Positions 41,755 to 59,258 of a stretch of 64,000 nucleotides of DNA are shown in pieces. The translations under genes and the position numbers were made by a program. A model generated the notes under the pieces. That model did not search any database. It worked only from the letters and a program-made list of their open reading frames with translations, and was not told where the DNA came from. How positions within the stretch are numbered: the first letter of the stretch is position 1; every line of letters starts with the position of its first letter. The stretch lies in assembly GCA_026415395.1 (NCBI GenBank), contig JAOAHD010000016.1, positions 248,001 through 312,000 on the forward strand. The letters run 5' to 3'. The stretch comes from Candidatus Binatia bacterium. GTDB lineage: Bacteria > Desulfobacterota > Binatia > HRBIN30.

Positions 41755-41774
41755 GTCCTTGCCCTCCTTGCCGT

Positions 41775-42926: not shown

Positions 42927-43045
42927 GGTTCCTCCCTTCAGTGACGAGCTCCGCCCGGCACGCGCAATTGTTTGCCGCGGCGTCCGCCACTTGGAAAGCA
43001 CTTCTACTCGCGCTTCATCTACCCTGCACCGCTTTCCTTGCTTGC

Positions 43046-44569
43046 TCAATCAGGGCGAAAGGTGTTTCCGCTGTCACTGTGCACGACTTCACCCTGCACA
43101 CCCACCAACTCGCGCTCTTCCCAACGAAGAAGTTCCGCAGGCTCCGCGGGCAAGTTGGCGAGAAATCGGTGGCCGTCGGCCAAGCGGCCGACGACAATGC
43201 CTCGTACCGGCGTGCCATCGCGATCGTGCACGATCGTGTAGGTTTCCACCGTGCCCCGACCGCACGGCCGCAACACCAGCTCCGGGCGAGCCATGCAATC
43301 GATTTCTTGCTGATACTCGGCCGGGTCGCGACGCACGAACGGGCGAGGTGGGGGCTCGGTGCTGTACAGGCCGACACTGTGCTTGGTGATGTACCAACCG
43401 AGTCCGGTCACCAACCCGCGCTTGCCAGGATGCTGGCGCAGCAGTTCGAGCATCGTCGCGATCGAGTGGGTGACGTAGTTATTTCCCGGGCCCCCAAAGT
43501 ACGGTAGGCCGCCAGTCACGGTGAGAGGCCGGGCGTCGTCGGCGCAGATGCCGAGAGCATCGCGGCCGATTTGCACCGCGCTGGGAAAGCAACTGTACAG
43601 GTCGAAGAAATCGATTTCCTCCAACGACCAACCCGCCATCCGCATTGCCTCCCGACCTGCGACGCGGATGGCGGGTGACGACCAGTAATTCACCCGCTCG
43701 GAGACGAACCAGTGGTCCTGCGTATCCGCGCAACCCCACAAATACACGCAGCGGTCCCGCGGCACCCCGAGTTCTTTGGCATACGCGGCCGAGGTGATCA
43801 GCAAGGCGGCGCCTTGATCGACCTCCATGATCGCGTTCATGTACTTCGTGTACGGGAACGACACCATGCGGTTTTCCGCACTGGGCGTGGCAATTTCCTC
43901 TGCCGTGCGGCGCAGCGGAAACCACGCATGCGGGTTTTGCGCAGCCACAGCGGTCATCCGGGCACAAAGCTCCCCCAGGTACCGCCGGTGCTGCTCCAGG
44001 GAATGCCGGTAGTGAACCCGCAGCGCGTTCTCGAACAGCGGGTAGACCACCACCGGCAACGTCATCCCGTGGGCCATCTCGACGTCGTTCACACCGGGGC
44101 GCTCGGAACCAACCACCGTCGCGGGCGGAAATCCGGGCGCTTCACCCTTCGACCATTGCAACTGCACCTTTGCCACCCGGGCGCGCCGCCGCGTGGCAAA
44201 CGCCTCGGCCCCAGCAAGCAAGGCAAAGCGCACCTCTCCTTTAGCAATGCGAGCAGCAATCTCGTTCACCAACCACTGAGGGGTGTTACCGCCCAGGGTC
44301 GAGTACCAGAGTTGCGCCGGCTTGGCATCGAACCGTGCCGCCAAGGCTCCCGGCGGGTTCGCATAAGACCAGCCGAGAATGTTCACGACTGCGGCCAGAT
44401 CGATCTTTGCCAGAGCGGCGGGCGCTAGGCCCGCATGCTCCGCAGCGCGCTGGGCGGCGATGGTCATGAGCCCGAGAGGCTCCTCCGCACGGAGCGGGTC
44501 CACGTCGCGTTGGGTGATTTGCCCCCCACCAATCAGAACCGGAATGCGGTCTTCGGACAACGCTGCCAT
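43046..44569 (-). CDS. Thiolase-like protein (TLP/SCP2-type) lacking catalytic cysteines
   Basis: The 507-residue protein has the thiolase fold plus a C-terminal OB-like extension (from about residue 415), as in TLP1-type 'acetyl-CoA acetyltransferase' proteins. The nucleophile cysteine of thiolases is replaced: the motif reads STLGGNTPQ. The region of the second cysteine reads TGLGWYITKHSVGLYS, also without cysteine. The His in the NYVTHSIA segment is kept. Such proteins bind CoA esters, but thiolysis by the classical mechanism is unlikely. It lies between the LLM monooxygenase and a zinc alcohol dehydrogenase on the same strand. Most pipelines would label it acetyl-CoA acetyltransferase. 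Confidence 0.82.
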   Translation of the reverse strand: MAALSEDRIPVLIGGGQITQRDVDPLRAEEPLGLMTIAAQRAAEHAGLAPAALAKIDLAAVVNILGWSYANPPGALAARFDAKPAQLWYSTLGGNTPQWLVNEIAARIAKGEVRFALLAGAEAFATRRRARVAKVQLQWSKGEAPGFPPATVVGSERPGVNDVEMAHGMTLPVVVYPLFENALRVHYRHSLEQHRRYLGELCARMTAVAAQNPHAWFPLRRTAEEIATPSAENRMVSFPYTKYMNAIMEVDQGAALLITSAAYAKELGVPRDRCVYLWGCADTQDHWFVSERVNYWSSPAIRVAGREAMRMAGWSLEEIDFFDLYSCFPSAVQIGRDALGICADDARPLTVTGGLPYFGGPGNNYVTHSIATMLELLRQHPGKRGLVTGLGWYITKHSVGLYSTEPPPRPFVRRDPAEYQQEIDCMARPELVLRPCGRGTVETYTIVHDRDGTPVRGIVVGRLADGHRFLANLPAEPAELLRWEERELVGVQGEVVHSDSGNTFRPD

Positions 44570-44617
44570 GTTCGCGTGCCTTTTCCCTTGAGGATCCGTG
44601 CGTTCGCAGCGGCGAGC

Positions 44618-45712
44618 TCACGAATACACGATGACGCTGCGCGCCACCTCGCCAGACTCCATCGCGGCAAAGGCATCGTTGACTTGATCCAAGGAAATGC
44701 GGCGCGAAATCAGCTCGTCGAGCTTCAGCCGCTTCTGCACGTACAACTCGAGCAGCTTCGGCATGTCGCGCCGCATGTGCGCCGAGCCATACAGCGAGCC
44801 CACCACCGACTTCTCTTCCAGCGGAATCGCCGACGCCGGCAGGCTCACCGTCTGGTCGAAGCCGGGAACACCCACCACAATCACTTTGCCGCCGCGGCGC
44901 ACGGACAAAAATGCCTGGGTGATGATTTCCGGCATGCCGATCACTTCGAAGGCAAAGTCCACGCCGCGGCCCTCGGTTAGCGAGCGAATCGCATCGGGCA
45001 CATCGCTGGTTTGTGTGGCGTTAATCGTGTCCGTAGCGCCGAACTCGCGAGCCCACTGAAGCTTTTTGTCCACGAGGTCAACAGCAATGATGCGCGCGGC
45101 ACCGCACAGCACGGCTCCTTGAACCACATTCAGTCCAACGCCTCCGCAACCGAACACAGCCACGGTTTGTCCGGGCCGCAACTTGGCCGTGTTCGTCACC
45201 GCACCCACTCCGGTCATCACCCCGCAACCCACCAAGCAAGCCCGATCGAGTGGCACATTCTCAGGGATCTTGATGCAAGCCGAAGCCCGCACCAGCGTGC
45301 GTTCGGCAAACGAGGCGACGCCCGCCATGCGGGAAATTGCCTGGCCATCCTTCTCAAAAGCGGTTTCCTCGCCCGCCATCATGGCTTTGATGGCTGCGTC
45401 GCAGAGGTGCTCCTCGCCATCGATGCAGTACGCACAGCGCCCACAACTTTGTACCCAAGCCAACACCACGTGGTCGCCAGGTTTGAGCCCGACAACATCT
45501 TTCCCTACCTCTTCCACGATGCCGGCGCCTTCGTGGCCGAGAATCACCGGCGGCGGGAACGGCAGTTTGGCTTGTTGGACCGACAAATCGGAGTGGCACA
45601 CCCCACTCGCAGCCATTTTCACCACCACTTCATCCGGACGCGGATCGCGCAGGCGCACCTGCTCGATCTTGAGAGGCTCGAAAAAGTTGTACAACACTGC
45701 TCCACGAACCAT
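44618..45712 (-). CDS. Zinc-dependent alcohol dehydrogenase (class III-like)
   Basis: The 364-residue medium-chain dehydrogenase has catalytic zinc ligands Cys39 and His60/Glu61, and structural zinc ligands Cys90, Cys93, Cys96 and Cys104 (CGRCAYC then EEHLC). The Rossmann motif is VFGCGGVGLNVVQGA, followed by the aspartate VD that favours NAD(H). Its closest look is the class III / NDMA-dependent alcohol and aryl-alcohol dehydrogenase group. GAGGTGG precedes the ATG. It sits 48 bases upstream of the thiolase-like gene. It probably oxidises an alcohol formed in the same pathway. Confidence 0.92.
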   Translation of the reverse strand: MVRGAVLYNFFEPLKIEQVRLRDPRPDEVVVKMAASGVCHSDLSVQQAKLPFPPPVILGHEGAGIVEEVGKDVVGLKPGDHVVLAWVQSCGRCAYCIDGEEHLCDAAIKAMMAGEETAFEKDGQAISRMAGVASFAERTLVRASACIKIPENVPLDRACLVGCGVMTGVGAVTNTAKLRPGQTVAVFGCGGVGLNVVQGAVLCGAARIIAVDLVDKKLQWAREFGATDTINATQTSDVPDAIRSLTEGRGVDFAFEVIGMPEIITQAFLSVRRGGKVIVVGVPGFDQTVSLPASAIPLEEKSVVGSLYGSAHMRRDMPKLLELYVQKRLKLDELISRRISLDQVNDAFAAMESGEVARSVIVYS

Positions 45713-46834: not shown

Positions 46835-47518
46835 CTACCGCAGCCACCAAGTGACGAAGGTGTTCCCCGCGCGGCGCAAGTCGCCGAACAACGTCGCAAG
46901 TAGGTAGGTCGCGAGGAACCCGAGCGCGTAAAATACTGAGGGATGCCGACCGGCCGCCGCTGCGACTCTGCACATGTTGCGCAGGACGAAGCGGCTCCTG
47001 TCCACGAGCAGCACGCTGGCAACTCCGATGACGGTGCCGCCCAAAATGTCGGTGGGGTAGTGCAGGCCGAGGTACACGCGCGGAAAGCACACCACCGCGA
47101 CGGTGTGCACTAAAGCGATCAAGCCAAGAGGGCGCGCGACCATCCACAGTCCGGTTGCCAGCGCAAAAAACAGCGTGGCGTGGTCGCTCGGGAAGGCGCT
47201 CCATTCGGCCCATCCGGGTGACAACTCCGCATCCATGCCGACCAAGATTCGCGGGCGCGGCCGGTAGGGAAGTGCGAGCGCGAGCACCGACGCGATCGCC
47301 AATGCGCCCATGGCAGCGGCCAGGGCAGCCAGCAGCCGGGCTCGCTGCTCCCGTTGCTGCGATCCTTTCCGAAACCAAGCCCACCAATAGAGACTCAGCG
47401 CAAAGCCGCCTTTGACCAGTTCCCAGTTCGTGGAAAACGCAACCAGTCCATCAAACCATGGCCAGCGATTCGCCCAAGACGTGAGCCAGCGTAGGATGGC
47501 GAAGTCGAAGGCATTCAC
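46835..47518 (-). CDS. PAP2-family membrane phosphatase
   Basis: The 227-residue integral membrane protein has five or six hydrophobic segments and the three phosphatase motifs of the PAP2 superfamily: ALPYRPRP (motif 1 in short form), AFPSDHATL (motif 2 with His), and RVYLGLHYPTD (motif 3). Relatives dephosphorylate undecaprenyl pyrophosphate, phosphatidate or other prenyl and lipid phosphates at the outer face of the inner membrane. It starts nine bases after the MaoC-like gene, so it ends the thiolase-to-MaoC operon. The reason for a phosphatase there is unclear. Confidence 0.88.
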   Translation of the reverse strand: MNAFDFAILRWLTSWANRWPWFDGLVAFSTNWELVKGGFALSLYWWAWFRKGSQQREQRARLLAALAAAMGALAIASVLALALPYRPRPRILVGMDAELSPGWAEWSAFPSDHATLFFALATGLWMVARPLGLIALVHTVAVVCFPRVYLGLHYPTDILGGTVIGVASVLLVDRSRFVLRNMCRVAAAAGRHPSVFYALGFLATYLLATLFGDLRRAGNTFVTWWLR

Positions 47519-47527
47519 GAACTTGCT

Positions 47528-48373
47528 CTACTCGCGGTAGCGCGTGAGCCCTTGGGAAAGCACGACGTTACCGCGCTGAGTCTCGCATTGCACGATGGCC
47601 TCGCCCGGCGCGGTGCGCCACAGCTTGGTGACGATGGTGTCGCCGAAATACACTTGGTCCGCAAAACGGGCCTCGAAGTGCAAGAACCGCGCGGGGTTAC
47701 CGTTGCAGAGCGCGCGCAAGATCGCTCGCCCCGCAAAGCCGTACGTGCAGAGCCCATGCATGAACGGCCTTTCGAACCCCGCCATACGGGCAAAGTCCGG
47801 ATCGATGTGAATCGGGTTGCGATCCCCGGAAAGGCGGTAAATTGCGCCTTGTTCCGGCCGGGTCACCAACTCGACCACGTGATCCGGGGCGCGGTCCGGC
47901 GGGCGGTTGCGATCCTGCGTCGACGGGCCTCGCTCGCCGCCAAAACCACCGGCCCCGCGAATGAACAACGTTGCCTTGGTCGTGCACAGCAGCCCCTGCC
48001 GATCTTCGACGATGCCCTCACAGCCAATCACCGCTGCCTTTCCTTTGTCCCACACTTCAGCCACGCGGCCGGTGATGGTTACCTCTGCCTCTGGCGGGAG
48101 CTCGCGGTGGAGGGTGATCGACTGCTCGCCATGCAGCAGCATCGCCAAGTTGATGTCGACGTTCGACACCAGTCCGCCCATGGAAAACATCCCGGGAATC
48201 ACCGCGTACGTCGGCAACACCTTCGGCCCTTTGCCTTCGTACACGAACGCCAGCTCGCCCTCGGGTTGGGCTCCCACCCCTACAGCGTAAAGCATTACGT
48301 CTTTCGCATCCCACCGGAACGTGACCGGTGGAAAGGTCATGCCTACAAGTGCACTAGAAATCGGTTGTCCCAT
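47528..48373 (-). CDS. MaoC-like (R)-specific enoyl-CoA hydratase
   Basis: The 281-residue protein is a double hot-dog hydratase of the peroxisomal MFE-2 hydratase-2 type. The catalytic motif is SGDRNPIHIDPDFARMAGF, with the conserved Asp and His, in the second half, followed by PFMHGLCTYGFAGRA. The first half is the degenerate hot-dog that binds the acyl tail, as usual for bulky substrates such as branched or steroid side-chain CoA esters. It lies 84 bases downstream of hyuA and nine bases before PAP2. It would hydrate a 2-enoyl-CoA ahead of the neighbouring thiolase-fold enzyme. Confidence 0.9.
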   Translation of the reverse strand: MGQPISSALVGMTFPPVTFRWDAKDVMLYAVGVGAQPEGELAFVYEGKGPKVLPTYAVIPGMFSMGGLVSNVDINLAMLLHGEQSITLHRELPPEAEVTITGRVAEVWDKGKAAVIGCEGIVEDRQGLLCTTKATLFIRGAGGFGGERGPSTQDRNRPPDRAPDHVVELVTRPEQGAIYRLSGDRNPIHIDPDFARMAGFERPFMHGLCTYGFAGRAILRALCNGNPARFLHFEARFADQVYFGDTIVTKLWRTAPGEAIVQCETQRGNVVLSQGLTRYRE

Positions 48374-48457
48374 CGCCAGTTTCCTTTCCCTCGTCTGAAT
48401 CTACTTGTCGGCTCCTCCCTACCATGCGCGCACACTCGCGCCCTTTCAAAGTCGACG

Positions 48458-50512
48458 CTACGTCCCGATCTCGATGCGGTAATTGCCTAAGCGATCGATC
48501 GTGGCTCGGTCGCCTGGGTGCAACACAATCGTGGTAAAGGGCTCCTCGATAATTGCCGGGCCGGCAATTTTCTGCCCGGCGCGCAAACTCGGACCGGCAA
48601 ACACTGGCACGGCCACAAAGCGCCCGCCGAAGTAGGCGCGTCGGCGTGATACCGGCTGTGCCGGCACACGCGTCGCGGCCAGCACCGGAAGGGCCGGTTT
48701 GGCCGTGTGCTGCACCACGGTGAGGCGCACACCCCGCAAAATCGGTTGCTCTTCGCGCACGGCATACGTGTGGAGTTCCTCGTGGAGATCGTGAAAGCGC
48801 TCGATGGTTTGCGCCCAGCGTTTCGGGGTCAGCGGCCGCAGTCCATTGCCCATCGGCACTGTCAAATCGAAGGTTTGTCCCGGGTAGCACAGTTGCGCAA
48901 AGCAGCGAAACTCGACCTTTTGTCGCCCGCCCCCGAGCACCTCGCGCGCGCGCCCCGCCATGTCGGCAAACAGCGCCTCGACCCGCGCCAGGTCCGCCGC
49001 CGCGGCGGGCGTGATGTACGACCGCATTTCGTCGACAATGCGATCGGCAAGCAGCAGCCCGAGGGCAGAAAACGCCGGCGAGGTTTTCGGCACGATGACC
49101 TGCCGAATGCCCAGCTCGCGCGCTTGTGCGGTGGCGTGGACCGGTCCGTTCCCTCCATACATCACCAGCGCGAACTCTCGCGGATCGACTCCGCGTTGAG
49201 CAGAAATCCGGCGGATGGCGTTCGCCATGTTGGCGTTGACGAGGCGATAAATCCCGTATGCGGCCTCTTCCACGGAAAGGCCGAGCGGTCGGGCAATCTG
49301 CTCCTCGATCGCTTCGGCTACGCCCTCTCGCTGCAAGCGCATGGTGCCCGCGCAAAAGGCTTCGGGGTTGAGATAGCCGAGGAGCAAATTGGCATCGGTG
49401 ACCGTCGGCACGCGACCGCCGCGGCCGTAACAAATGGGCCCAGGGTCAGCTCCTGCGCTCTGCGGGCCTACCTGCAAGCTCCCGCTGACCACCCGCGCGA
49501 GCGAGCCCCCGCCTGCTCCGATGGAGTGCACCTGCACCATCGGCAGGGCGATGAGATACCGGTGATGCCAGTTCCAGCCGGATCTAATCTCCGCTTCGGC
49601 GCCACGGACAAGACAAACGTCGTAGCTCGTACCGCCCATGTCGGCGCAAATGAAATCCATCACTCCAGCCTCTCGACCGAGGCGACAGGCGGCCATCACC
49701 CCACCCGTGGGGCCGGAGGCGAGCAGGGTGACCGGGCGCTGCAGGATGTACTGCGGCCCCATCATTCCCCCATTGGACTGCATGAGCAGCAACTCACCGC
49801 GATAGCCACTGATGTGGAGGCGGTCCGCCAAGCGGCGCACGTAGCGATCGATCTTCGGGCCGACGTACGCGTTGACCAACGTCGTACTGGTCCGCTCGAA
49901 CTCCGGTGCGGCGGGCAGGACTTCGTGCGATAGCCACACCGCCATCTCCGGACACTCTTCGCGCGCGATTTCGCGCACCCGCTGCTCGTGTCGTGGGTTG
50001 ATGAAAGAGAACAAGAACACCACGGCCAGGGATTCGGTGCCTTGTTTGCGCAGTCGGCGCAGGGCAGCGCGCACTGCCTCTTCGTCGAGCGGCACGAGGA
50101 CGTTACCCTCGTAGTCGAGCCGCTCCGGCACGCCAATGCGGCGGCGGCGCGGCGCAATCGGCGGGGGCGGGGGGAGTGCAGGATCCCAAATGTCTTCCTT
50201 AAAGCCGCGCCGGAGTTCGATTTCGTCGCGATGTCCGGCGCTGGTGACGAGTCCGGTCACTGCGCCGTTCATTTCGATCATCGTGTTGTCCGCGGTGGTC
50301 GTGCCGTGTACGATGCGGAGCGTTTTGCGCAGAAAGCTCGCCACCGACTCGCCCTCCTCCCCGGCAATTTGCGCAAGGCCCGCGAGCACTCCTTCGGATT
50401 GATCGCTCGGGGTGGTAGGGTGTTTCGCTAGGCGGATCGTGCCGTCGGGGCGGACGACGACAAAGTCCGTGAACGTTCCACCCACATCGATGCCAACGGC
50501 GTACCCACGCAT
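48458..50512 (-). CDS. Hydantoinase A / oxoprolinase / acetone-carboxylase family subunit (HyuA)
   Basis: The 684-residue subunit has the ASKHA ATP-binding N-terminus GIDVGGTFTDFVVVRPDG, the segment VHGTTTADN, and the second ATP motif ICADMGGTSYDVCLV. This family uses ATP to activate a carbonyl, amide or carboxylate group, for example in N-methylhydantoinase, 5-oxoprolinase, and acetone or acetophenone carboxylase. The ATG at 50512 is 22 bases after the HyuB stop. The gene order HyuB-HyuA inside a thiolase/DUF35/MaoC operon suggests carboxylation or amide cleavage of a CoA-pathway intermediate rather than hydantoin use. Substrate cannot be read from sequence. Confidence 0.88.
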   Translation of the reverse strand: MRGYAVGIDVGGTFTDFVVVRPDGTIRLAKHPTTPSDQSEGVLAGLAQIAGEEGESVASFLRKTLRIVHGTTTADNTMIEMNGAVTGLVTSAGHRDEIELRRGFKEDIWDPALPPPPPIAPRRRRIGVPERLDYEGNVLVPLDEEAVRAALRRLRKQGTESLAVVFLFSFINPRHEQRVREIAREECPEMAVWLSHEVLPAAPEFERTSTTLVNAYVGPKIDRYVRRLADRLHISGYRGELLLMQSNGGMMGPQYILQRPVTLLASGPTGGVMAACRLGREAGVMDFICADMGGTSYDVCLVRGAEAEIRSGWNWHHRYLIALPMVQVHSIGAGGGSLARVVSGSLQVGPQSAGADPGPICYGRGGRVPTVTDANLLLGYLNPEAFCAGTMRLQREGVAEAIEEQIARPLGLSVEEAAYGIYRLVNANMANAIRRISAQRGVDPREFALVMYGGNGPVHATAQARELGIRQVIVPKTSPAFSALGLLLADRIVDEMRSYITPAAAADLARVEALFADMAGRAREVLGGGRQKVEFRCFAQLCYPGQTFDLTVPMGNGLRPLTPKRWAQTIERFHDLHEELHTYAVREEQPILRGVRLTVVQHTAKPALPVLAATRVPAQPVSRRRAYFGGRFVAVPVFAGPSLRAGQKIAGPAIIEEPFTTIVLHPGDRATIDRLGNYRIEIGT

Positions 50513-50534
50513 GGAGACCCTCACATGGCCAGGA

Positions 50535-52382
50535 TCAACTCGCCCTCTCACCGCTTTGCTGCCGCAGCTCGGCGCGGAGAGCTCGGGTTGCTTCCCAGTC
50601 GACCTCCAGGGTCAAGTCCTCAAGCGAACCGCGCAGCACAACGCCGTAGTCGCTTCGCGCCGCTTCGATAGAAACGTACTCGTCGAGTACGTCCTCGAGT
50701 ACCCTTTGCGGGTCGCGTTCGAGCGGATCCCCCCAGCCACCACCACCCCCATATCGATACTCGTACCGTTCTCCAGGCAGGTGCTCGACATAAAACGCGG
50801 TGGTAGTCACCTCATGTGCATGTGGTCCCCCGGCGCGCACAATCAGCCGGTTCGGTGCTCCTGGCTTACCGCCGGCAATGCCAGGCATGGGGTATTTCCG
50901 CCCGACGACATAGGTGTAAATTTGCGCGGGGGCGCAAATTTCCTTGACATAAAGCGAGCCCGGGCAACCGCGCCACTTGCCGGGTCCACCCGTGTCGGTG
51001 GCGTAGTCACGCGAGATGTGCCGGACGGGAAAAATGGATTCGTTGATTTCCGCAGTGGCGCGAATCAAGTTCCCGAAGCTTACATTCATCGCCCCCCAGC
51101 CGTCTTGCCCGTACACCGCCCCGCAGTAAGCGGCAAAAGTGTCCACAGAGTGATCGATGAAGAGCTGCCCGGTCTTTGGGTGCTTGCCGAAGATCACCGT
51201 CGGCATTCCCATTTTGTAAATTTGCGGGCAACAACGCTCAGGAATGACTTGCTCGAGCGCCTTGGCGATGGCCTCGCCCACCTCGGTGCCGGGGTGGTGC
51301 GTGCCGGCAGCGACCGACCGTTCCGGCGGTGGATTTAAGCAGCAGCCAGGCGGAACGATCAGGCGGATGGAGTTGAAGAAGCCCTCGTTCTTCGGAATCG
51401 AAGGGTCCATCATGCTGGCGAGCTGGGCGACGACGTACCCCCGCGTGTTGCCGAAGGTGGAGTAGGCTTGCAAGTTGTCGCGCATGTCGGAGCCGGTGAA
51501 GTCGACGGTCAGATCGCTACCGCGAATCGTGACCTTGCAATGGATGTGAATATCGGGGTTCCCCTTCGGGTCGTGGTCGACATACACGTCCGACTCGTAC
51601 TCGCCATCCGGCCACTTCGCGACTTCTTCTCGGAAGCGGCGCGCGGCGTATTCGATCATGTACTCCACGGCGGCCCGCACGGTGGCCGTGCCATAGCGCT
51701 GGAGGAGTTCCTTCAACCGGCGCACACCGAGCTGCGCAGCGCCAATTTGCGCCCGCAGGTCGCCTATGAAGGTGGGCGTGCGGTTGTTGATTTTCATCAT
51801 GTACACTACATCGCGGCGCTCCACTCCGCGCTCGAACACCTTCACGGCGGGAAAGCGCACGCCCTCGGCCCAAATGTCGCGCGCATCCACGTTGTAGCCG
51901 CCGGGCATCGCCCCGCCCGTGTCGGCATGGTGGCACTGGATCGAGGCAATGAGCACCATTTCCCCGTCATGAAACACGGGGGCAAACACGTTGTAATCGG
52001 GAAGGTGGCCACCACCGTGGTACGGATCGTTAGCCACCAAAACGTCGCCATCGTACAAACCGTCGGGTCCGAAAAATTCGAGGGCGAATCGCACCGGCAA
52101 GGTGGAGCTCAACATGAACTGCGGAATCCCCACGCTCAGCGCTGCCAGCGAGCCGCGTGCATCCAAAATTGTGGCGTTGCGCTCGTTCGATTGGTTCAAG
52201 ATGGGAGTCGTGGCCGTCAGGCTGACATGGGTGGCCATCTCGTAGCAAATGGTTTCCATCGCTCCGCGAATGATTTCGGCGGTAACCGGATCCACCGTTG
52301 TCTTGGCCTTGGGTGACTTCATCCGGCTTGCCGCTAGCCGGCGCGGTTTGTCACGAGAAACCACTTTGCCATGAGTTCGCAT
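50535..52382 (-). CDS. Hydantoinase B / oxoprolinase / acetone-carboxylase family subunit (HyuB)
   Basis: The 615-residue subunit matches HyuB in length and motifs: DPVTAEIIRGAMETICYEMA near the front, then ATILDARGSLAAL, DVLVANDPYHGGGHLPD, and PGGYNVDARDIWAEG. It forms the catalytic partner of HyuA in ATP-dependent hydrolases and carboxylases. The ATG at 52382 has a strong AAGGAGGAACCC upstream. It starts 20 bases after the DUF35 gene stop. No gamma subunit (as in acetone carboxylase) is found in the operon, which argues for a two-subunit oxoprolinase-type enzyme, though acetophenone carboxylase-like complexes also vary in composition. Confidence 0.9.
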   Translation of the reverse strand: MRTHGKVVSRDKPRRLAASRMKSPKAKTTVDPVTAEIIRGAMETICYEMATHVSLTATTPILNQSNERNATILDARGSLAALSVGIPQFMLSSTLPVRFALEFFGPDGLYDGDVLVANDPYHGGGHLPDYNVFAPVFHDGEMVLIASIQCHHADTGGAMPGGYNVDARDIWAEGVRFPAVKVFERGVERRDVVYMMKINNRTPTFIGDLRAQIGAAQLGVRRLKELLQRYGTATVRAAVEYMIEYAARRFREEVAKWPDGEYESDVYVDHDPKGNPDIHIHCKVTIRGSDLTVDFTGSDMRDNLQAYSTFGNTRGYVVAQLASMMDPSIPKNEGFFNSIRLIVPPGCCLNPPPERSVAAGTHHPGTEVGEAIAKALEQVIPERCCPQIYKMGMPTVIFGKHPKTGQLFIDHSVDTFAAYCGAVYGQDGWGAMNVSFGNLIRATAEINESIFPVRHISRDYATDTGGPGKWRGCPGSLYVKEICAPAQIYTYVVGRKYPMPGIAGGKPGAPNRLIVRAGGPHAHEVTTTAFYVEHLPGERYEYRYGGGGGWGDPLERDPQRVLEDVLDEYVSIEAARSDYGVVLRGSLEDLTLEVDWEATRALRAELRQQSGERAS

Positions 52383-52402
52383 GGGTTCCTCCTTCCCCGA
52401 TT

Positions 52403-52837
52403 TCAAGACCCCGAAGCGGGTGATGCCTCTCGGCTCGGGCGAAACTTGGGCAGGGCAACGTCGTCACGCACCTTGTCGAACACGACTTCCACAGGCATCC
52501 CCACGTAAATCTCTTCCGCGGAGCACTCCACCAGTTGCGTGTGCAAACGCGGACCCTCGTCCAACTCGACTAACGCGACGTTGTAAGGCACGTCGGCATT
52601 GAAGGCCGGATACTGCGACTGGTGCACAATCACCCAACTGTACACGCGCCCCTTGCCGGAAAGTGGCACCCAAGAAAAATTCTCGCTCTGACAACGCGGG
52701 CAGAGGAACGCCGGCGGAAAACGGATGTGCCCGCAGGCGTGGCACTGTTGCATGCAAAGCTGGCCGCGCAGCGCTGCTTCCCAAAACGGCGCTGTATCCT
52801 CGGTGCCGCGCGGCAAGGGCTTCTCGAGAGTGAACAT
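52403..52837 (-). CDS. DUF35 OB-fold/zinc-ribbon protein, thiolase partner
   Basis: The 144-residue protein has the rubredoxin-like zinc ribbon CHACG...CPRC (Cys32, Cys35, Cys46, Cys49) followed by an OB-fold (KGRVYSWVIVHQSQYP, VPYNVALVELDEG, GMPVEVVFD). DUF35 proteins bind thiolase-fold enzymes, for example BbsA with BbsB in toluene catabolism and ChsH2 with the aldolase Ltp2 in steroid degradation. It lies 12 bases after the thiolase-like gene and so is almost certainly its subunit. Confidence 0.93.
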   Translation of the reverse strand: MFTLEKPLPRGTEDTAPFWEAALRGQLCMQQCHACGHIRFPPAFLCPRCQSENFSWVPLSGKGRVYSWVIVHQSQYPAFNADVPYNVALVELDEGPRLHTQLVECSAEEIYVGMPVEVVFDKVRDDVALPKFRPSREASPASGS

Positions 52838-52849
52838 GACAATCTCCTT

Positions 52850-54010
52850 TCAGTCGCGCGCCAACACCAGGGCGGAGTAGCTGACCGTCGGAGGCGATTC
52901 GTGCGGCGCCCCGCCGTAACCAGTCACCAAGCAAATCCGTGCACCGGCCACTTGCCGCTTTCCGCACTCTCCGCGCAGTTGGCGTACCCCTTCGCGTACA
53001 TGACCGAAACCCCACAGATGGCCTTCGGACAACAGCCCGCCCGCGGTATTGCACGGCACGCGCCCGCCCAGCGCGAAATCCCCTCGCGCAAAGGCGGCAT
53101 CCAGCTCTTCAGGCGCGGCAAGGCCATACGCCACGAGATCGTTCACGACCCGCGGGGTGAAGGCATCGTAGAACTGAACGCAGCTCAAGTCGCTGGCGCG
53201 AATCCCCGCCATTGCATACGCCCGCGCTGCCGCCTTCATGCCGCCCCACAACGCTTGCCCGTTGCCCTTCGGTTCCACCAGCTCCGCTCGATGCTCCTGG
53301 CCAACCCCGATGACGCGCACGACCGGCTGACGGAGATCCCGCGCCCGCTCCACTGAGGTGACGACGATGGCACCGCCGCCGTCCGTGTTCGGGCAACAAT
53401 CGAACAAGCGCAGCGGCTCGGCCACCCATCGCGAGGCGAAATAATCCTCGAGGGTCATCGGCTTCTGCATCTGTGCTTCTTCGTTAAGCTGCGCATGGCT
53501 GCGGCAAGTCACCGCCACGCGTCCATACAGCTCGTCCGGCAGCCCGTACTCCACCTGCTGCCGGCGCTTGAGAAAGCCGCTGAAGCAAATTGCCCCCACA
53601 TCGCCATACGCAAGGTGAAACTCGGAACCGAACAGTTGCAGCGCCACGCCTTGCGGCCAGGTTTGCGTGCCAAAGGCACACAGTACGGTGGAACAATACC
53701 CAGCCTCGATCGCTGCCATGGCCATGTGCACCGCCCCGCATGCCGTGGCACCGCCCATGTCCACAGTGCTGCAAAACGACGGATCGAGCCCCAGATAGGC
53801 AGCCACCCGTGCGGCCCAACCATGCTGCTCCCCGAGCGCGGCCGGCATCACTACCAGCAGTCCGTCGATGTCGGCCATGCGCACACCCGCATCTTCTACG
53901 GCTCGCTTACTCGCCTCCAGCGTGAAGCCCATCGGGCTCACTCCGGGCACCTTGCCAAAGCGCGACAACGCGACTCCGGCAATCGCATACTTTCCTCGCA
54001 ACGTTCCCAT
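52850..54010 (-). CDS. Thiolase-fold enzyme of the SCP-x/Ltp2/BbsB type
   Basis: The 386-residue protein has the thiolase fold with the nucleophile region VDMGGATACGAVHMA, where a cysteine is kept at about residue 92. The C-terminal region reads NTAGGLLSEGHLWGFGHV, with the His of the GHxxG motif. The second catalytic cysteine of thiolases is absent: the last glycine-rich loop reads TGYGGAPHESP. This pattern is typical of DUF35-associated enzymes, either BbsB-like thiolases or Ltp2-like retro-aldolases. It heads an operon with DUF35, HyuB, HyuA, MaoC-like hydratase and PAP2. GGTGAGCG precedes the ATG. It probably cleaves a C-C bond of a beta-oxo- or beta-hydroxyacyl-CoA. Confidence 0.87.
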   Translation of the reverse strand: MGTLRGKYAIAGVALSRFGKVPGVSPMGFTLEASKRAVEDAGVRMADIDGLLVVMPAALGEQHGWAARVAAYLGLDPSFCSTVDMGGATACGAVHMAMAAIEAGYCSTVLCAFGTQTWPQGVALQLFGSEFHLAYGDVGAICFSGFLKRRQQVEYGLPDELYGRVAVTCRSHAQLNEEAQMQKPMTLEDYFASRWVAEPLRLFDCCPNTDGGGAIVVTSVERARDLRQPVVRVIGVGQEHRAELVEPKGNGQALWGGMKAAARAYAMAGIRASDLSCVQFYDAFTPRVVNDLVAYGLAAPEELDAAFARGDFALGGRVPCNTAGGLLSEGHLWGFGHVREGVRQLRGECGKRQVAGARICLVTGYGGAPHESPPTVSYSALVLARD

Positions 54011-54318: not shown

Positions 54319-57300
54319 TCAATCGATGGGCGGAACAATCGACGTGGGCGAACGCGTCGACGTGCGGGTCGCACTGGCCGAGGCCGTAGGTGTGCGCGTG
54401 ACCGTCGCTGTGCCCGTCGCAGTTCGTGAAGGCGTGGCAGGGAGCGTTGGCAACGGGCAGCGATTACCAAACTGCAGGTTCAGTACTTGCCCGCATTCGA
54501 TGAAGACGGAATGCGTGCCCGGCGGCGAAGGGAAGGTTTGCACGCAACTGCCTTGCAGCACTTCCTGCACCGTGTACGGCGCAGCCGCTGGTATCCCCGT
54601 GCAAATCGTGCCACCTGCCAAAGTCACCACCGAGCTCACCACGTTGTTGTTGGCGTCGAGAAATTGGATCGTCCAGCCACCGAGCCCAGGCTCTCCATCG
54701 TTTTGACCGTTACCGTTGAGGTCCCAAAACTTCGTCACACACACCTCGGCAAAGCACGGCGTGCGGCTCGGCGTCAACGAAGGCCGACTTGTCGGAGTCG
54801 CACTCACCGTTGCCGTTGGTGTATTGCTCGCCCGCGGCGTCGCGGTGGGAGAATTCGTTGCCGTGGCAGTGGGTCGGGATGTTGCCGTTCCCGTGGGGGA
54901 AGGAATCCGGGTAGGCGACGACGAAGCGGTGGGGGTAGGGGTGATCGTCAGCGACGGTGTGGCAATGGGCAGTGTTGCCGTGTGTGTCGGAGTGGCCGTG
55001 CACACTGCACCCGGGCATCCCGAGGTCGGTGTTGCCGTCGGCGACAGTGGCTCGCCGGGCATACACTCGCAACCTGAATCGTCCGGCTTCGGTCGGCACA
55101 CCTCGTTGGGGTTCGGGCACGTCCCGCCACACATGCGCGGTCCCACAAAGCGGCATTCGCCCTCGAAGGTCGGCGTGATTGTCTGGGTGGGTGTCCGGGT
55201 CAGAGGCGGAGAAACCGTAGCCGTAGCGGTCGAGCTCGCAGTGCGCGTGTGGGTGGACGTCGTTGAGGCCGATAAAGTGCTCGTGGGTGTCGGGGTCGCC
55301 GTGAGGCTGGGTGATGCGCTACTGGCCGTTGGGGTTTTGCACTTACCCCCGAAGCCAGCGATGCTGGCAATTTCCGGCGAGGTCAGGGCGCGATTGAAGA
55401 TTTCGACTTCGTCGAGGCCGAACTCGAACCCATTGTTCGGAAGGCGCGACTTTCCGATCCATAGGGGCACAGTGCTATCGCTCACCCCTGCGGCCGGAGC
55501 AAAGCTGCCAAGCACGTTGCCGTTGAGGTAAAAGACGCCAAGGCTAGCGCCACGGTCGACGGTAACGGCCACATGCAGCCACTGTCCGCCAAAGGGCCAC
55601 GGCGGAACGGGCGGCAAAAAGCTCATGGTAGGCACATCGTAAAGCGCAGTGCCGCTGTAAATCGGGGCGCACACGCCACTGCTGCCTTGTTGGAAGCACA
55701 AGTCGACGAACACATTCACCGGAAAATTCTGCGGCGGATTCGGTGGCGCGGAGGTCGCCATGGTGCGCAGGAACAAAGCGTAGCCGGCGTTTCCCGCGGC
55801 ATCGGCCTTGTCGACAATGGCATAAAAGCGTGCCTGGCCGGGCGACCAGTCCGGCACCCCACCAAAGCCCGGGGCGTTGGGCAAGAAAGCAGCGAACCAC
55901 GCGTCGATGGTGAGATCCTTCTGAGCAAGATCCAGCAGCGGAGAATGAGGGACTTCGACCAACTCCGCGCCGGAGAAGAAGTAAAGCGCCGTGGCCACTT
56001 GCCCTGCAATCGTCACCGGGCCATTGGCGAACGTGCTGTTCACCGACCCCGGCTGCGGCTGTCCGTTCAAAGCCAGCCCTCCGATGTCGAGCACTGAAGT
56101 CGCGCCGCTCGGGTCGTCGAGTGGCCACCACGCAATTGCGTTCGTGGGGATCCCCACACACGTGGGTGTGGGCGTGGCGCTCGCTGTCGCCCCTGATGGA
56201 GTCGAGCTCGGTGTCGGGGTGGCCGAAGGCGTCTGGGTCACGGACCTCGTCGGGCTCGGACTCGGGTGCGGAGTGGGTGACGCACTCGGGATTGATGTGG
56301 CTGAGGCCGTCGCGCTCGCCGTCGCGCTAGGTGACAAGGTCAACGTTCGCGACGCGGTCGGAGTGACTGTGGCTGTCTGCGTGCGGGTTAGTGTGCGCGT
56401 GCGGGTCGCGGTCACGCTCAGCGGTGGTGTACGGGTGGACGACGCAGTTGAGGTGGCAGAGGACGTGCGCGTCGCGGTTCTCGTGCGGGTGGCGGTGCGA
56501 GTGGGCATTGCCTTGTGGGTGGGCGTAGCCGACGGGCAGTCCGCCTCCGCGCGGGCATTGACCAAGAAGCCCGTCACGTTCGACAAGTTGCTCACGTTAA
56601 ATCGCAATGTGTTCAGCCCTCCGACAAACGGGTTGAATGCAGGCGGGCTCGCCACAAGGTTCAAGTTCTGCAGAGCGGAAAAGCAATTACTCGTCGGCGG
56701 CGTGCACGACCCAATCACAGTGTTGTTCAGTAAGATGCTCGAGACGATGTTGTCCGCAGCATACTGCCCCACGATGCGGAGGGCGGTGTACTGACTGAGT
56801 GGCGGCCAAATGAAGACGTCCACCACGTAGCTAGCGTTCGGTCCCGGGCTCGGGCTTCCAGACGTGCTCGGCTGAAGCCACCAGACCCCAGCAGGTGGTG
56901 CGACCCATGCTGTCGCCGGCGTCGTCGTAAAGGGGATGGGGCCGACCGGCGGTGTGGGTAGCGCAAAGCGCCAAAACGGGTCCGGCGCACCGGCAACGCT
57001 CACGCCTTGTCCGGTACTGATGTTCGCCACCAACGTTTGTCCGGGCACTGCGGGCGGAGAGCACGGTCCGAGGAACACCACGGGAGGCTGCGTGATCCCC
57101 GGTGTAGCGGTAGGCGAATTCGTCCCTGTGGGGGTGACGACGATAGCTGTTGCCGTTGGAGTGCGGGTCGGGGTAAAGCCATTGACTGGCGGGCAGCCCT
57201 CCAGCACCCCACGCACGGCACGCACGATCTCTTCCACGGTGATGCGCCTGTCGCCATCGCTGTCGCCGGCCGCACAGGCGCCGGCATCCGCCCCCTCCAG

Positions 57301-57510
57301 TGCCAAGCGTACCAGGGTGACAACTTCATCGACGGTGACGGCGCCATCTCCGCGACAGTCGCCCGGGCACGTCTGGGCCCAAAGAGATTGCGGCTTAAAG
57401 AATGCCGCCCCTGCTAGAAATGTGAGGAGCACAAACTTGCAAACCAAGTTGCGTGGGGCGACCCATAGAATTCCGCCAATTCCAGTCGGTCGCAACGCTC
57501 GTCGGTTCAT
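54319..57510 (-). CDS. Large secreted dockerin/Thr-Pro-repeat/LamG protein
   Basis: The 1,063-residue protein starts at the ATG at 57510 (AAGGCGATCCCC upstream), has a signal peptide (cleaved near residue 46), and then a dockerin-like EF-hand pair at about 48-106. A beta-sandwich domain follows at about 145-325, a Thr/Pro/Ser tract at 325-450, and a LamG/concanavalin-type domain at 455-725 (AWWPLDDPSG start, WLHVAVTVDRG, LDEVEIFNRAL). A second tract leads to a small cysteine-rich module at about 787-823, then a third tract, an SdrD-like calcium-binding Ig domain near 920-1020 (KFWDLNGNGQNDGEPGLGGW), and a Thr/Ser tail. It resembles the protein at 5944-8616 in architecture. The open frame extends to 58278 across the csb2 stop, but that part is not coding. 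It likely binds carbohydrate at the cell surface. Confidence 0.8.
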   Translation of the reverse strand: MNRRALRPTGIGGILWVAPRNLVCKFVLLTFLAGAAFFKPQSLWAQTCPGDCRGDGAVTVDEVVTLVRLALEGADAGACAAGDSDGDRRITVEEIVRAVRGVLEGCPPVNGFTPTRTPTATAIVVTPTGTNSPTATPGITQPPVVFLGPCSPPAVPGQTLVANISTGQGVSVAGAPDPFWRFALPTPPVGPIPFTTTPATAWVAPPAGVWWLQPSTSGSPSPGPNASYVVDVFIWPPLSQYTALRIVGQYAADNIVSSILLNNTVIGSCTPPTSNCFSALQNLNLVASPPAFNPFVGGLNTLRFNVSNLSNVTGFLVNARAEADCPSATPTHKAMPTRTATRTRTATRTSSATSTASSTRTPPLSVTATRTRTLTRTQTATVTPTASRTLTLSPSATASATASATSIPSASPTPHPSPSPTRSVTQTPSATPTPSSTPSGATASATPTPTCVGIPTNAIAWWPLDDPSGATSVLDIGGLALNGQPQPGSVNSTFANGPVTIAGQVATALYFFSGAELVEVPHSPLLDLAQKDLTIDAWFAAFLPNAPGFGGVPDWSPGQARFYAIVDKADAAGNAGYALFLRTMATSAPPNPPQNFPVNVFVDLCFQQGSSGVCAPIYSGTALYDVPTMSFLPPVPPWPFGGQWLHVAVTVDRGASLGVFYLNGNVLGSFAPAAGVSDSTVPLWIGKSRLPNNGFEFGLDEVEIFNRALTSPEIASIAGFGGKCKTPTASSASPSLTATPTPTSTLSASTTSTHTRTASSTATATVSPPLTRTPTQTITPTFEGECRFVGPRMCGGTCPNPNEVCRPKPDDSGCECMPGEPLSPTATPTSGCPGAVCTATPTHTATLPIATPSLTITPTPTASSSPTRIPSPTGTATSRPTATATNSPTATPRASNTPTATVSATPTSRPSLTPSRTPCFAEVCVTKFWDLNGNGQNDGEPGLGGWTIQFLDANNNVVSSVVTLAGGTICTGIPAAAPYTVQEVLQGSCVQTFPSPPGTHSVFIECGQVLNLQFGNRCPLPTLPATPSRTATGTATVTRTPTASASATRTSTRSPTSIVPPID
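56160..56535 (-). repeat. Thr/Pro/Ser low-complexity coding repeat
   Basis: This is the longest of several degenerate repeat tracts in the LamG-bearing gene; others lie at about 55150-55340, 54770-55040 and 54330-54440. Units encode TxTxTPT, SATASAT and similar runs. All stay in frame. They separate folded modules, as in the propeller lipoprotein at 2914-5685. Confidence 0.8.
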
Positions 57511-57574
57511 GGGGATCGCCTTTCTCAAACGCCGCCTTTCGAGTAGCCACATTGGCGGAACTCGGTGGATAAAA

Positions 57575-57616
57575 GGCCTTATACACCCTCCTCTCGGCCT
57601 TATACACCCTCCTCTC
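57575..57616. repeat. Exact tandem duplication of 21 bases
   Basis: Two identical, directly adjacent 21-base units (GGCCTTATACACCCTCCTCT plus C) lie between the csb2 stop and the start of the LamG protein. On the minus strand each unit reads through GGAGGGTGTATAAGG. There is no spacer, so this is not a CRISPR array. The TATAAG in each copy could provide a duplicated -10-like element for the downstream gene. The remaining bases of 57511-57746 show no gene. Confidence 0.85.
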
Positions 57617-57746
57617 AAGGAGTGCAACAAACTACGGGCAGCGAAATATTTGCCTCGCGCACCACGCCCCGCCGGCGACGTTTCGACACGGCGCGGGGGT
57701 GGTTGCAGCGTCCCCCGAGCATCCGAAGCGTCGGAGCTGCAGAATG

Positions 57747-59258
57747 CTACGCGACCGGTTTGAACAAGCCGACCCCAAAGCTGGCGGAGTGCCCCAACCG
57801 CAGGGGCCCGGGGACGGGCTCTGGAAACTCCAAGCGCAGCCGGTACCCGCGGCGGTCGCCCCACGATGTGCGCGCTCTTGCCTCGACCCGCGGCAAATGC
57901 ACCGCGACCCACGACGAGCCGAGCACCTCCACATTCGTTTGTTCGGCACCGGCAACGCCCCGCAACGCGAGCTCGCGCCGCACTTGATGTTCTACCGCTT
58001 CCCGCGCGCGTAGCTTCCCGCCCCGCAAGTATCGGCGCGCCGGCACGTACGGAACCATGGACTCCCATACCTGCCACGCTCCATCGCCAAACCCCGGTGG
58101 CGGAGGAACACTGCGATCCAGCGGCACCAGCCGCACCTTCCACGCATCGCTGTCGTCGCCCGGCGCTGCCCAGGAAACTGGCTGCGCGGCAGCAGCTAAG
58201 ATGGCTTGTTCTTCCTCCCTTTCGAAGGTGCTGCTGCGCCAAACCATGAGGCGCGTGGGGCAGCCGTCCTCGCACCAAACAAAAAACTCTGCGTGCCGGT
58301 GTCCTTGCAGTGGCTTGCCGTCAGCGTCTTTCCCGGCGATCAAGGCAACCGCGTTGCGAAGTTCCCTGGAAGCGCGAGACCATGTTACCGCGCGACCATT
58401 CGCCTTCTCCTTCAGGAGCTCGCGCAGCACCCTGCCGCGGAAGCGCGACGTCAAACGCGCTACCGCGCGGAGTTCCGGTTGCACGGTCCAGCCTATGGCG
58501 AACTGAATCAAGTTTCGGCTCGAGTGCATGGAACGTAACTGCCGTTTTTCGGAAGTGAACGGGCGCGGCGGACGGGCGGCGTAAAGGTACCGCGCACCAG
58601 GGGGCAGCGAGCGCCCGGCCACACTGGGATCCTCGGTCGTTCGTTCGAGGTCCGAGCGTCTAGCCTCCGGAGAAGGTACCAAAACCGGCACTCTGTCCCC
58701 TCGCGGTTCCTCGAAGAGCTCGCAGTTAGGCTGGGGAAAACTGACGGACTCGCGATACATGCGCGAGAACGACTCCGCCCTACCAAAGTAAATCATGCGC
58801 TCGAGGCAGCGGTCTAGCACGGTCGCCAGCTCGTCGCTCCAATCCGGCCCATCGATGAACCACCACACGGCGCCTTCATCCCCTCGGAGCGTGCACCAAT
58901 AATTGTCTTGCGCCAAGCTGCGGCGATACGAGCGCATCCCCGGCTTACCTTTTACCGCCGGATCCCAGTCAAAGTCCGCTGGAAAATATTGGCGCAGGGG
59001 AGCACCTCTACGGGCAGCCGGAGAAAGCCAAAATGCATACGAGCTCGTGCAAAGGGCCCGCACAAGCTTGTCGAGCTCGCCATCCGAGCGTGGATCCTTG
59101 GATTCTCGCGCCCATTGGTACCACCGTGCGACCACAGCACGAGCAAAGCGCCACGGGCTCGGCGGCCACTCGCCATGGGGGTCGTCGAAAGGATTCACCC
59201 GCCACGGTGTGGCGTGAAAACGGCCCAGGGGGAACACTTGTCGGAGGACGATCCTCAT
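57747..59258 (-). CDS. csb2: Type I-G CRISPR protein Csb2 (Cas5-Cas6 fusion)
   Basis: The 503-residue protein matches the GSU0054/Csb2 family. An N-terminal Cas5-like part begins with QVFPLGRFHATPWRVNPFDDPHGEWPPSPWRFARA. A C-terminal RAMP half contains GHRHAEFFVW, whose histidine is a candidate for crRNA processing, and ends in the glycine-rich loop GPLRLGHSASFGVGLF typical of Cas6-like proteins. In type I-G systems this protein processes pre-crRNA and caps the 5' end of the Cascade complex. It starts nine bases after csb1 and is the last cas gene visible; no cas4, cas1 or cas2 follows. Confidence 0.92.
   Translation of the reverse strand: MRIVLRQVFPLGRFHATPWRVNPFDDPHGEWPPSPWRFARAVVARWYQWARESKDPRSDGELDKLVRALCTSSYAFWLSPAARRGAPLRQYFPADFDWDPAVKGKPGMRSYRRSLAQDNYWCTLRGDEGAVWWFIDGPDWSDELATVLDRCLERMIYFGRAESFSRMYRESVSFPQPNCELFEEPRGDRVPVLVPSPEARRSDLERTTEDPSVAGRSLPPGARYLYAARPPRPFTSEKRQLRSMHSSRNLIQFAIGWTVQPELRAVARLTSRFRGRVLRELLKEKANGRAVTWSRASRELRNAVALIAGKDADGKPLQGHRHAEFFVWCEDGCPTRLMVWRSSTFEREEEQAILAAAAQPVSWAAPGDDSDAWKVRLVPLDRSVPPPPGFGDGAWQVWESMVPYVPARRYLRGGKLRAREAVEHQVRRELALRGVAGAEQTNVEVLGSSWVAVHLPRVEARARTSWGDRRGYRLRLEFPEPVPGPLRLGHSASFGVGLFKPVA

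Follow-up and report, generated by a model that had tools for sequence, protein, structure and literature searches.

We describe here a six-gene operon on the minus strand of a 64,000-nucleotide stretch of DNA from a Candidatus Binatia bacterium (contig JAOAHD010000016.1, positions 248,001 to 312,000; this whole stretch is referred to as the window), which encodes in 5'-3' order a thiolase-fold protein, a DUF35 protein, HyuB, HyuA, a MaoC hydratase and a PAP2 phosphatase. We tentatively propose, at somewhat less than even confidence, that these genes provide consecutive steps in the breakdown of branched or polycyclic acyl-CoAs, in which hydration is followed by retro-aldol cleavage to a ketone and by ATP-dependent activation by HyuAB, probably a carboxylation. 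As far as sequence can tell, the gene families, their order, the ATP motifs, a Glu-His-Asp-His metal tetrad, the loss of the thiolase nucleophile, the retained tyrosine of the YDAF motif, the hydratase motif and the recurrent linkage of the genes are all present.

All six open reading frames lie on the minus strand, in an assembly that spans 3.69 Mb over 25 contigs, and with their Pfam matches they bear out the families, order and coordinates given in a preliminary description of the window, as well as its view that this is a catabolic operon of acyl-CoA type containing HyuAB. A spacing of 12 to 84 bases had also been given, and these values are found at two of the five junctions; in order, the junctions are a 12-base gap, overlaps of 4 and 17 bases, and gaps of 84 and 9 bases, all dependent on the start codons chosen. 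A congener (L050/L114) has the identical six genes in identical order, and among 140 genomes of the class (called Binatia by inference) a further 30 carry HyuB orthologues of 72-91% identity, so that the six-gene set is far beyond chance. Among named records of the genome collection, HRbin30 has the closest HyuB (91%, L033). Searches of open-licence literature gave no title or abstract describing a pathway that combines aldolase, DUF35, HyuAB and hydratase, in agreement with the earlier statement that none was known. The enzyme kinds are familiar; the combination, and a glutamate-marked two-subunit HyuAB clade linked to aldolases, were not found described in that literature.

The thiolase-fold protein and its probable DUF35 partner

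Among solved structures, the best sequence matches of the thiolase-fold protein are the putative thiolase 4U4E and Ltp2 (6OK1), followed by Sal (9MYR). It carries Gly87 where thiolases have their nucleophilic cysteine, and the HDCF motif of SCP2 thiolases is replaced by YDAF, the Tyr281 of which aligns with Tyr294 of Ltp2. For Sal, the tyrosine of YDHF/YDCY is given as the catalytic base and glycine at the nucleophile position is argued to rule out thiolysis (PMC12329534); by that argument the window protein should not thiolyse a 3-ketoacyl-CoA, because its nucleophile is missing. The earlier suggestion of a thiolase-DUF35 pair that cleaves a C-C bond of CoA esters therefore holds for the pairing of fold and partner, but we rejected a plain thiolase because the nucleophile is missing, and the protein is probably better read, from its residues, as a DUF35-bound retro-aldolase resembling Ltp2 and Sal. 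By analogy with those systems, the DUF35 protein is the probable binding partner of the aldolase (PMC11321319, PMC12329534).

The residue pattern recurs among relatives. Glycine at the nucleophile position together with the tyrosine of YD[A/G/C]F is seen in all 16 aligned thiolase-fold rows (13 distinct sequences). We refer to loci as E-state or D-state according to whether HyuB has glutamate or aspartate at a metal-ligand position discussed below. Both a thiolase-fold and a DUF35 gene are present in 16 of the fetched E-state loci, and 14 of these show the pattern; the two exceptions (L056 and L086) are Cys/HDCF thiolases that lie 7-9 kb away.

The likeness to Ltp2-ChsH2 and Sal-Shy extends to the thiolase fold, the adjacent DUF35 gene, glycine in place of the nucleophilic cysteine, the YDxF tyrosine and the coupling to a MaoC hydratase, which in both Shy/Sal and ChsH/Ltp2 is joined via DUF35 to an aldolase that yields a ketone or aldehyde (PMC11321319, PMC12329534). 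However, the second catalytic residue of these aldolases is absent from the window protein, which has His331 at the position of Ltp2 Tyr344 and Ala283 at that of Sal Cys304; identity is 30-36% in structural alignment, the protein and seven orthologues form a clade of their own (support 100/100) outside the group holding Ltp2, and HyuAB shares the operon. The HyuB-associated proteins of L048, L051, L058, L064 and L066 do retain the second tyrosine of Ltp2. The best structural matches of an AlphaFold model (mean pLDDT 80.8) are Sal (Z 47.9, with an rmsd of 2.5 over 374 aligned positions) and Ltp2 (Z 47.8, with an rmsd of 2.1 over 361), but further thiolase folds come within 1 to 3 Z units, so that the fold alone decides nothing between aldolase and thiolase. 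Benzoylsuccinyl-CoA thiolase BbsAB (7PXP) likewise pairs a thiolase fold with DUF35 on CoA esters, although the similarity is lower (68 bits to the BbsB model and 49 to that of BbsA), and BbsAB is called a thiolase by PDB and NCBIfam whereas the window protein has no nucleophile.

Because the aldolase, DUF35 and MaoC functions are those of the steroid side-chain set (PMC11321319, PMC12329534), one could picture a steroid or bile-acid side-chain cluster of the igr type, as in ChsH1-ChsH2-Ltp2, that recruited HyuAB for a ring ketone. KshA_C-type Rieske genes near HyuBA in L063, L073 and L076, a KshA_C match in 10 of the 31 genomes with HyuB, and two hot-dog proteins ahead of the aldolase in three genomes of one family are in keeping with such an origin. 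We nonetheless consider it very unlikely for the window: its genome, G001 and G002 have no KshA_C match although 40 of the 140 class genomes do, and on this ground we rejected a steroid ring pathway in the window genome. Moreover, the window MaoC is a double hot-dog of MFE-2 type, and the aldolase scores 234.6 bits against the 469-bit cut-off of the PRK07855 lipid-transfer protein subfamily (NCBIfam), a model that presumably covers Ltp2 and that the Halioglobus homologue in L066 matches with 540.5 bits.

The HyuA and HyuB clade

Alignments and trees place HyuA and HyuB in a well-supported clade apart from the solved relatives placed in the trees, which are caprolactamase, N-methylhydantoinase, acetophenone carboxylase and acetone carboxylase. 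Of the 51 rows of the HyuA tree, which includes four PDB references, 27 form a clade (SH-aLRT 100) that contains the window protein and excludes CapA, N-methylhydantoinase, ApcC and AcxB; in the HyuB tree (37 rows, four references) the window protein falls within a 15-row clade (SH-aLRT 100) with no solved relative inside. Long branches join Apc and Acx in these trees, and the distance from the clade to the carboxylases is poorly measured. In the tree comparison that had been suggested, HyuAB do not group with the one solved hydantoinase, and both subunits are also distant from acetone carboxylase. We note that chain 6yra_A is labelled 5-oxoprolinase in the PDB table, but 6YRA is the caprolactamase entry (PMC8453981).

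The clade is marked by a substitution in the metal site. All 15 rows of the HyuB clade have glutamate at the position of the CapB metal ligand Asp41 (Glu75 in the window), and every row outside it with a residue there has aspartate, save the alpha subunit of acetone carboxylase (Glu89); the ApcD row is gapped, and the distribution requires two changes on the tree. In a larger alignment of 95 HyuB proteins the position is glutamate in 84, aspartate in 10 and a gap in one. Glu89 of acetone carboxylase is described as a gating residue (PMC8453981). Two HyuB proteins of L188 also have glutamate and lie outside the clade, and their motif SPIVSQGGE resembles the SPIVEQEGE of acetone carboxylase; this locus is scored as E-state in the counts below, and is acetone-carboxylase-like rather than a clade member. 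The other three ligands of the window site (Glu75-His134-Asp137-His159) are intact, giving a tetrad that departs from the Asp-His-Asp-His of CapAB, and the ATP motifs of HyuA are intact as well. The AlphaFold model of HyuB (mean pLDDT 76.8) has confident Foldseek matches in the hydantoinase/carboxylase family alone, and since its confidence is poor near the metal site (residues 131-136 and 161-183), we draw no geometry from it.

Acetone carboxylase AcxABC (5SVB, 5M45) resembles the window pair in its HyuA- and HyuB-like subunits and in the metal-site glutamate (Glu89, matching Glu75 here), but the window has no gamma subunit, its HyuB is 623 rather than 776 residues long, Tyr171 stands where AcxA has Met187, and the two are distant in both trees. 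Acetophenone carboxylase Apc (5L9W) has a HyuA/HyuB-like core and would share a ketone substrate if our model is right, although it is made from four to five genes, two of them HyuA-like (PMC5214803), whereas the window operon has one HyuA and no extra subunit. A direct part of the extra subunits of the known ketone carboxylases in the reaction has been doubted (PMC5214803, section 7).

Linkage, the proposed route and its competitors

The loci used to measure linkage were gathered by similarity to HyuB or HyuA and not randomly; HyuB proteins more than 93% identical were collapsed (164 to 128 loci), fragments shorter than 450 aa were dropped (400 aa in a second count), rows neither E nor D (one in the first count, three in the second) stand outside both classes, and kinship is uncorrected in the statistics. 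A thiolase-fold gene and a DUF35 gene within 10 kb on the same strand accompany 16 of 78 E-state loci and 3 of 49 D-state loci (Fisher p 0.04), and the linkage rises to 9 of 26 among Binatia-type loci, defined by HyuB over 800 bits (p 0.002 against the same D-state loci). With at least 5 kb on both flanks, the Binatia-type loci remain distinct (7 of 14 against 3 of 33 D-state, p 0.004). Linked loci occur in genomes of the class, in Halioglobus (L066) and two other gammaproteobacteria (L058, L064), in Myxococcales (L063, L072) and in an acidimicrobiian (L051). Within the 140 genomes, a HyuB orthologue (E 1e-200 or better) is present in 31, a thiolase-fold orthologue (540 bits or more, a threshold chosen after the list was seen) in 14, and both in 12 (Fisher p 1e-7). 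A second count that adds the window and L199-L205 gives linkage in 18 of 79 E-state and 3 of 49 D-state loci, with a hydratase in 4 of the 18 linked and 3 of the 61 other E-state loci (p 0.04, from a biased sample); we do not lean on this last value, since L199-L205 had been chosen by their aldolase and the same loci supplied the hydratase seeds. A search of plasmids with the window HyuB returned 926 records, none reaching 60% identity.

The hydratase is a less constant companion. The window MaoC is, by its sequence, an MFE-2 type hydratase 2 with a double hot-dog and an intact YRLSGDRNPIHIDP, which we take to be the hydratase-2 motif; MFE-2 hydratases act on bulky, branched enoyl-CoAs. Its orthologues (64-82% identity) occur in seven relatives (G003, G004, G005, G006, G008, G010 and G012), and in the three of these with a window-type HyuA (G004, G008 and G012) they are not beside it. 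MaoC adjoins HyuA in the window's genus only, and since the orthologues in relatives sit elsewhere we regard that position as a trait of the genus. MaoC-family hydratases have nevertheless joined the cluster in two further lineages, with different genes each time. One comprises G021, G088 and G091, all of one family, where two single hot-dog proteins (the first Pfam-typed in L201 only, the second identified by its motif) and an aldolase are followed by an alpha/beta hydrolase, DUF35 and HyuB, the last lying about 9 kb past DUF35 in G021 and interrupted by the contig end in G088 and G091. The other is Halioglobus L066, which has a cluster-92 protein (FAS1_DH type, typed on the L055 member) behind HyuA. 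The PAP2 protein, which had been called unexplained, has its nearest NCBIfam resemblance to undecaprenyl-diphosphate phosphatase (45.8 of 229 bits); outside the window, L050 is the only one of the 128 non-redundant loci to have PAP2 close to HyuB. We accordingly rejected MaoC and PAP2 as defining parts of the module. A search for the whole operon, as proposed earlier, recovers the core of aldolase, DUF35 and HyuB beyond the genus and all six genes in the congener, whereas PAP2 and the position of MaoC are confined to the genus.

Hydration, retro-aldol cleavage and then activation or carboxylation of the ketone is the simplest reading that joins the Shy/Sal and ChsH/Ltp2 precedents with the carbonyl activation of HyuAB relatives. 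MaoC would hydrate an enoyl-CoA with a fully substituted beta carbon, and the aldolase and DUF35 would split the resulting tertiary 3-hydroxyacyl-CoA, leaving a ketone beside acetyl- or propionyl-CoA, in the manner of Ltp2 (ketone) and Sal (aldehyde) in steroid side-chain breakdown (PMC11321319, PMC12329534). HyuA with ATP would then form an enol phosphate, a carboxyphosphate or both, to be handed to the HyuB metal site; in relatives of HyuAB, the carbonyl is activated in phospho-enol or phospho-imidate form (PMC5214803). The ketone would most probably be carboxylated there to a beta-keto acid, which a CoA ligase or CoA transferase might re-activate, a guess prompted by the CoA ligases and CoA-transferase III that flank cluster genes in L064 and L066. 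We infer the substrate, the ketone as product, its carboxylation and the re-activation with CoA.

A broader proposal, which we think unlikely though not fanciful, is that this is a gamma-less, two-subunit ketone carboxylase family with a glutamate-marked HyuB, taking its ketone from a thiolase-fold retro-aldolase and serving in several phyla as a general bypass of the fully substituted carbon in isoprenoid, terpenoid and polycyclic acyl-CoAs. If true, a two-subunit clade with a carboxylase-type glutamate beside ketone-releasing aldolases would show which residues and subunits separate carboxylation from amide hydrolysis, and would offer a testable class of carbon source for the Binatota, 'yet-uncultured' in the title of PMC8262859. 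That paper places the order HRBin30 within the phylum, and the words 'ketone', 'acetone', 'steroid' and 'thiolase' are absent from its main text.

A number of observations weigh against a ketone carboxylation route, beginning with the altered second catalytic position of the aldolase noted above. Caprolactamase is the best NCBIfam and PDB match of both window subunits and is closer than the carboxylases. Both known types of ketone carboxylase have three or more kinds of subunit, the two-subunit relatives known so far are hydrolases, and an alpha/beta two-gene make-up is that of the Hyd type (PMC5214803, section 7). HyuAB may instead be an ATP-dependent hydrolase of a lactam, imide or other amide, similar to CapAB (6YRA); the operon would then serve the breakdown of a nitrogen heterocycle, with the hydratase and aldolase handling the acyl-CoA after ring opening. 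CapAB has the same two-subunit build, ATP motifs and three of the four metal ligands, and its proposed acid/base Tyr136 of CapB corresponds to Tyr171 of the window HyuB, although this position is phenylalanine in 54 of the 95 aligned HyuB proteins. Upstream of HyuB and on its strand, an amidase gene (PF01425, tested on the L043 member) is present in L043, L047, L049, L052 and L128; in L049 and L128, apparently a single genome, an opposite-strand gene intervenes. Amidohydro_2 genes occur close to HyuBA in 10 loci, and window 38797-39714 encodes a member of the permuted papain-like amidase family (PF05708). However, the window subunits reach 624.0 and 303.3 bits, far below the caprolactamase equivalog cut-offs of 1000 bits, glutamate replaces the metal ligand aspartate, the vicinal Cys410-Cys411 of CapB align with Val442-Ser443, CapAB and N-methylhydantoinase fall outside the clade, and a transaminase was not found among the 20 window proteins scanned. 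We therefore regard amide hydrolysis as possible but on the unlikely side.

The ketone carboxylase proposal must also accommodate the absence of the acetone carboxylase gamma subunit, of which there is none in the operon and no match to its family (PF08882) in the window genome, G001 or G002. PF08882 matches occur in 56 of the 140 class genomes, 18 of these above 100 bits, and the strong matches are found in none of the 31 genomes with window-type HyuB and in 18 of the 109 others (p 0.013); this mutual exclusion is confounded by kinship, and we keep it as a lead. The DUF35 protein was considered as a stand-in for the gamma subunit, since both bind zinc through cysteines, and was rejected. Strong gamma matches are present elsewhere in the genomes of G005 and G010.

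The remaining difficulties concern linkage. At the 540-bit threshold 19 of the 31 HyuB genomes have no thiolase-fold orthologue, so the linkage is not obligate, and G005 and G010 have a thiolase-fold orthologue but not a window-type HyuB. A HyuA gene no more than 4 kb from HyuB is present in only 16 of 26 Binatia-type loci, against 51 of 52 other E-state loci, and a search of G032, which has the aldolase, DUF35 and HyuB, gave no HyuA at E 1e-100. The thiolase-fold profile derives from E-state loci and so favors detection there, and with at least 5 kb on both flanks linkage over all E-state loci is 11 of 49 against 3 of 33 D-state (p 0.14). In G024 and G031, D-state HyuAB is linked to DUF35 and true thiolases, and thiolase-fold linkage alone is thus no proof of ketone chemistry. 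A different explanation is that the genes are neighbors with separate jobs and that the HyuAB pair and the aldolase pair serve different pathways: either pair is found without the other, many Novosphingobium loci have HyuBA among housekeeping genes, flanked by an aminotransferase on one side and FtsH/DnaB on the other, and linkage over all E-state loci is not significant once full flanks are required, which makes this explanation somewhat more likely and ketone carboxylation somewhat less so. We still consider it quite improbable, given the tight packing of the genes in the window, the significant linkage in Binatia-type loci, and the linkage in other phyla, there with a different aldolase subclade.

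Operon features and neighboring genes

Table 1. Genes of the operon in 5'-3' order, with window coordinates and principal sequence features
Feature	Position	Strand	Details
Thiolase-fold protein, probable Ltp2/Sal-like retro-aldolase	52850..54010	-	386 aa; PF22691, 115 bits; Gly87, Tyr281 (YDAF), His331
DUF35 protein/ChsH2-like, zinc ribbon and OB fold, probable aldolase partner	52403..52837	-	144 aa; PF01796, 89.5 bits; PF12172, 34.6 bits
HyuB, metal-bearing subunit	50535..52406	-	623 aa; PF02538, 444 bits; putative ligands Glu75, His134, Asp137, His159; Tyr171
HyuA, ATP-binding ASKHA subunit	48458..50551	-	697 aa; PF01968, 306 bits; DVGGTFTD, DMGGTSYD and GADPGP intact
MaoC double hot-dog hydratase, MFE-2 hydratase-2 type	47528..48373	-	281 aa; PF22622, 97 bits; PF01575, 93 bits; YRLSGDRNPIHIDP intact
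PAP2 membrane phosphatase	46835..47518	-	227 aa; PF01569, 54 bits; probably a genus-level neighbor, outside the module

Several loci show related arrangements. L174 (G034:C110) has a D-type HyuAB followed by an aldolase-type thiolase-fold protein (YDHY, with the tyrosine) and DUF35, and is an independent instance of linkage. In L044 (CAMBZJ010000035.1) a 74% identical HyuB occurs together with the aldolase and DUF35, and in L199 (G005) and L200 (G010), where a window-type HyuB is not present, the aldolase-DUF35 pair lies behind an acyl-CoA ligase-like gene. The congener also encodes a second E-type HyuB (77-79%) at L122 (G001:C7:285100-305000), with no HyuA beside it and close to an NDMA-type alcohol dehydrogenase and a P450-cluster gene. 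E-type HyuBA of gammaproteobacteria appears in a second catabolic context (L061, L065, L067, L068, L071, L074, L075 and L105), where the neighbors are varying subsets of P450, CoA-transferase III, crotonase, short-chain dehydrogenases, ferredoxin and AraC regulators.

Within the window, a second catabolic operon lies downstream at 40969-45712 (-) and is shared with the congener L050. It encodes an NDMA-type alcohol dehydrogenase, a TLP1 thiolase-like protein with an extra C-terminal domain, a luciferase-like monooxygenase and an alpha/beta hydrolase, and the monooxygenase and hydrolase could form another ketone-handling route. Immediately upstream of the six genes is a 1319-aa frame with a Laminin_G_3 domain (54319-58278, -), which has a weak codon-position signal and relatives in L050 and G002. 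Further on, a Cas_GSU0053-family protein (59268-60446, -; Pfam 90 bits) adjoins two long frames (60433-63997, -), and a type I CRISPR locus probably has its border here.

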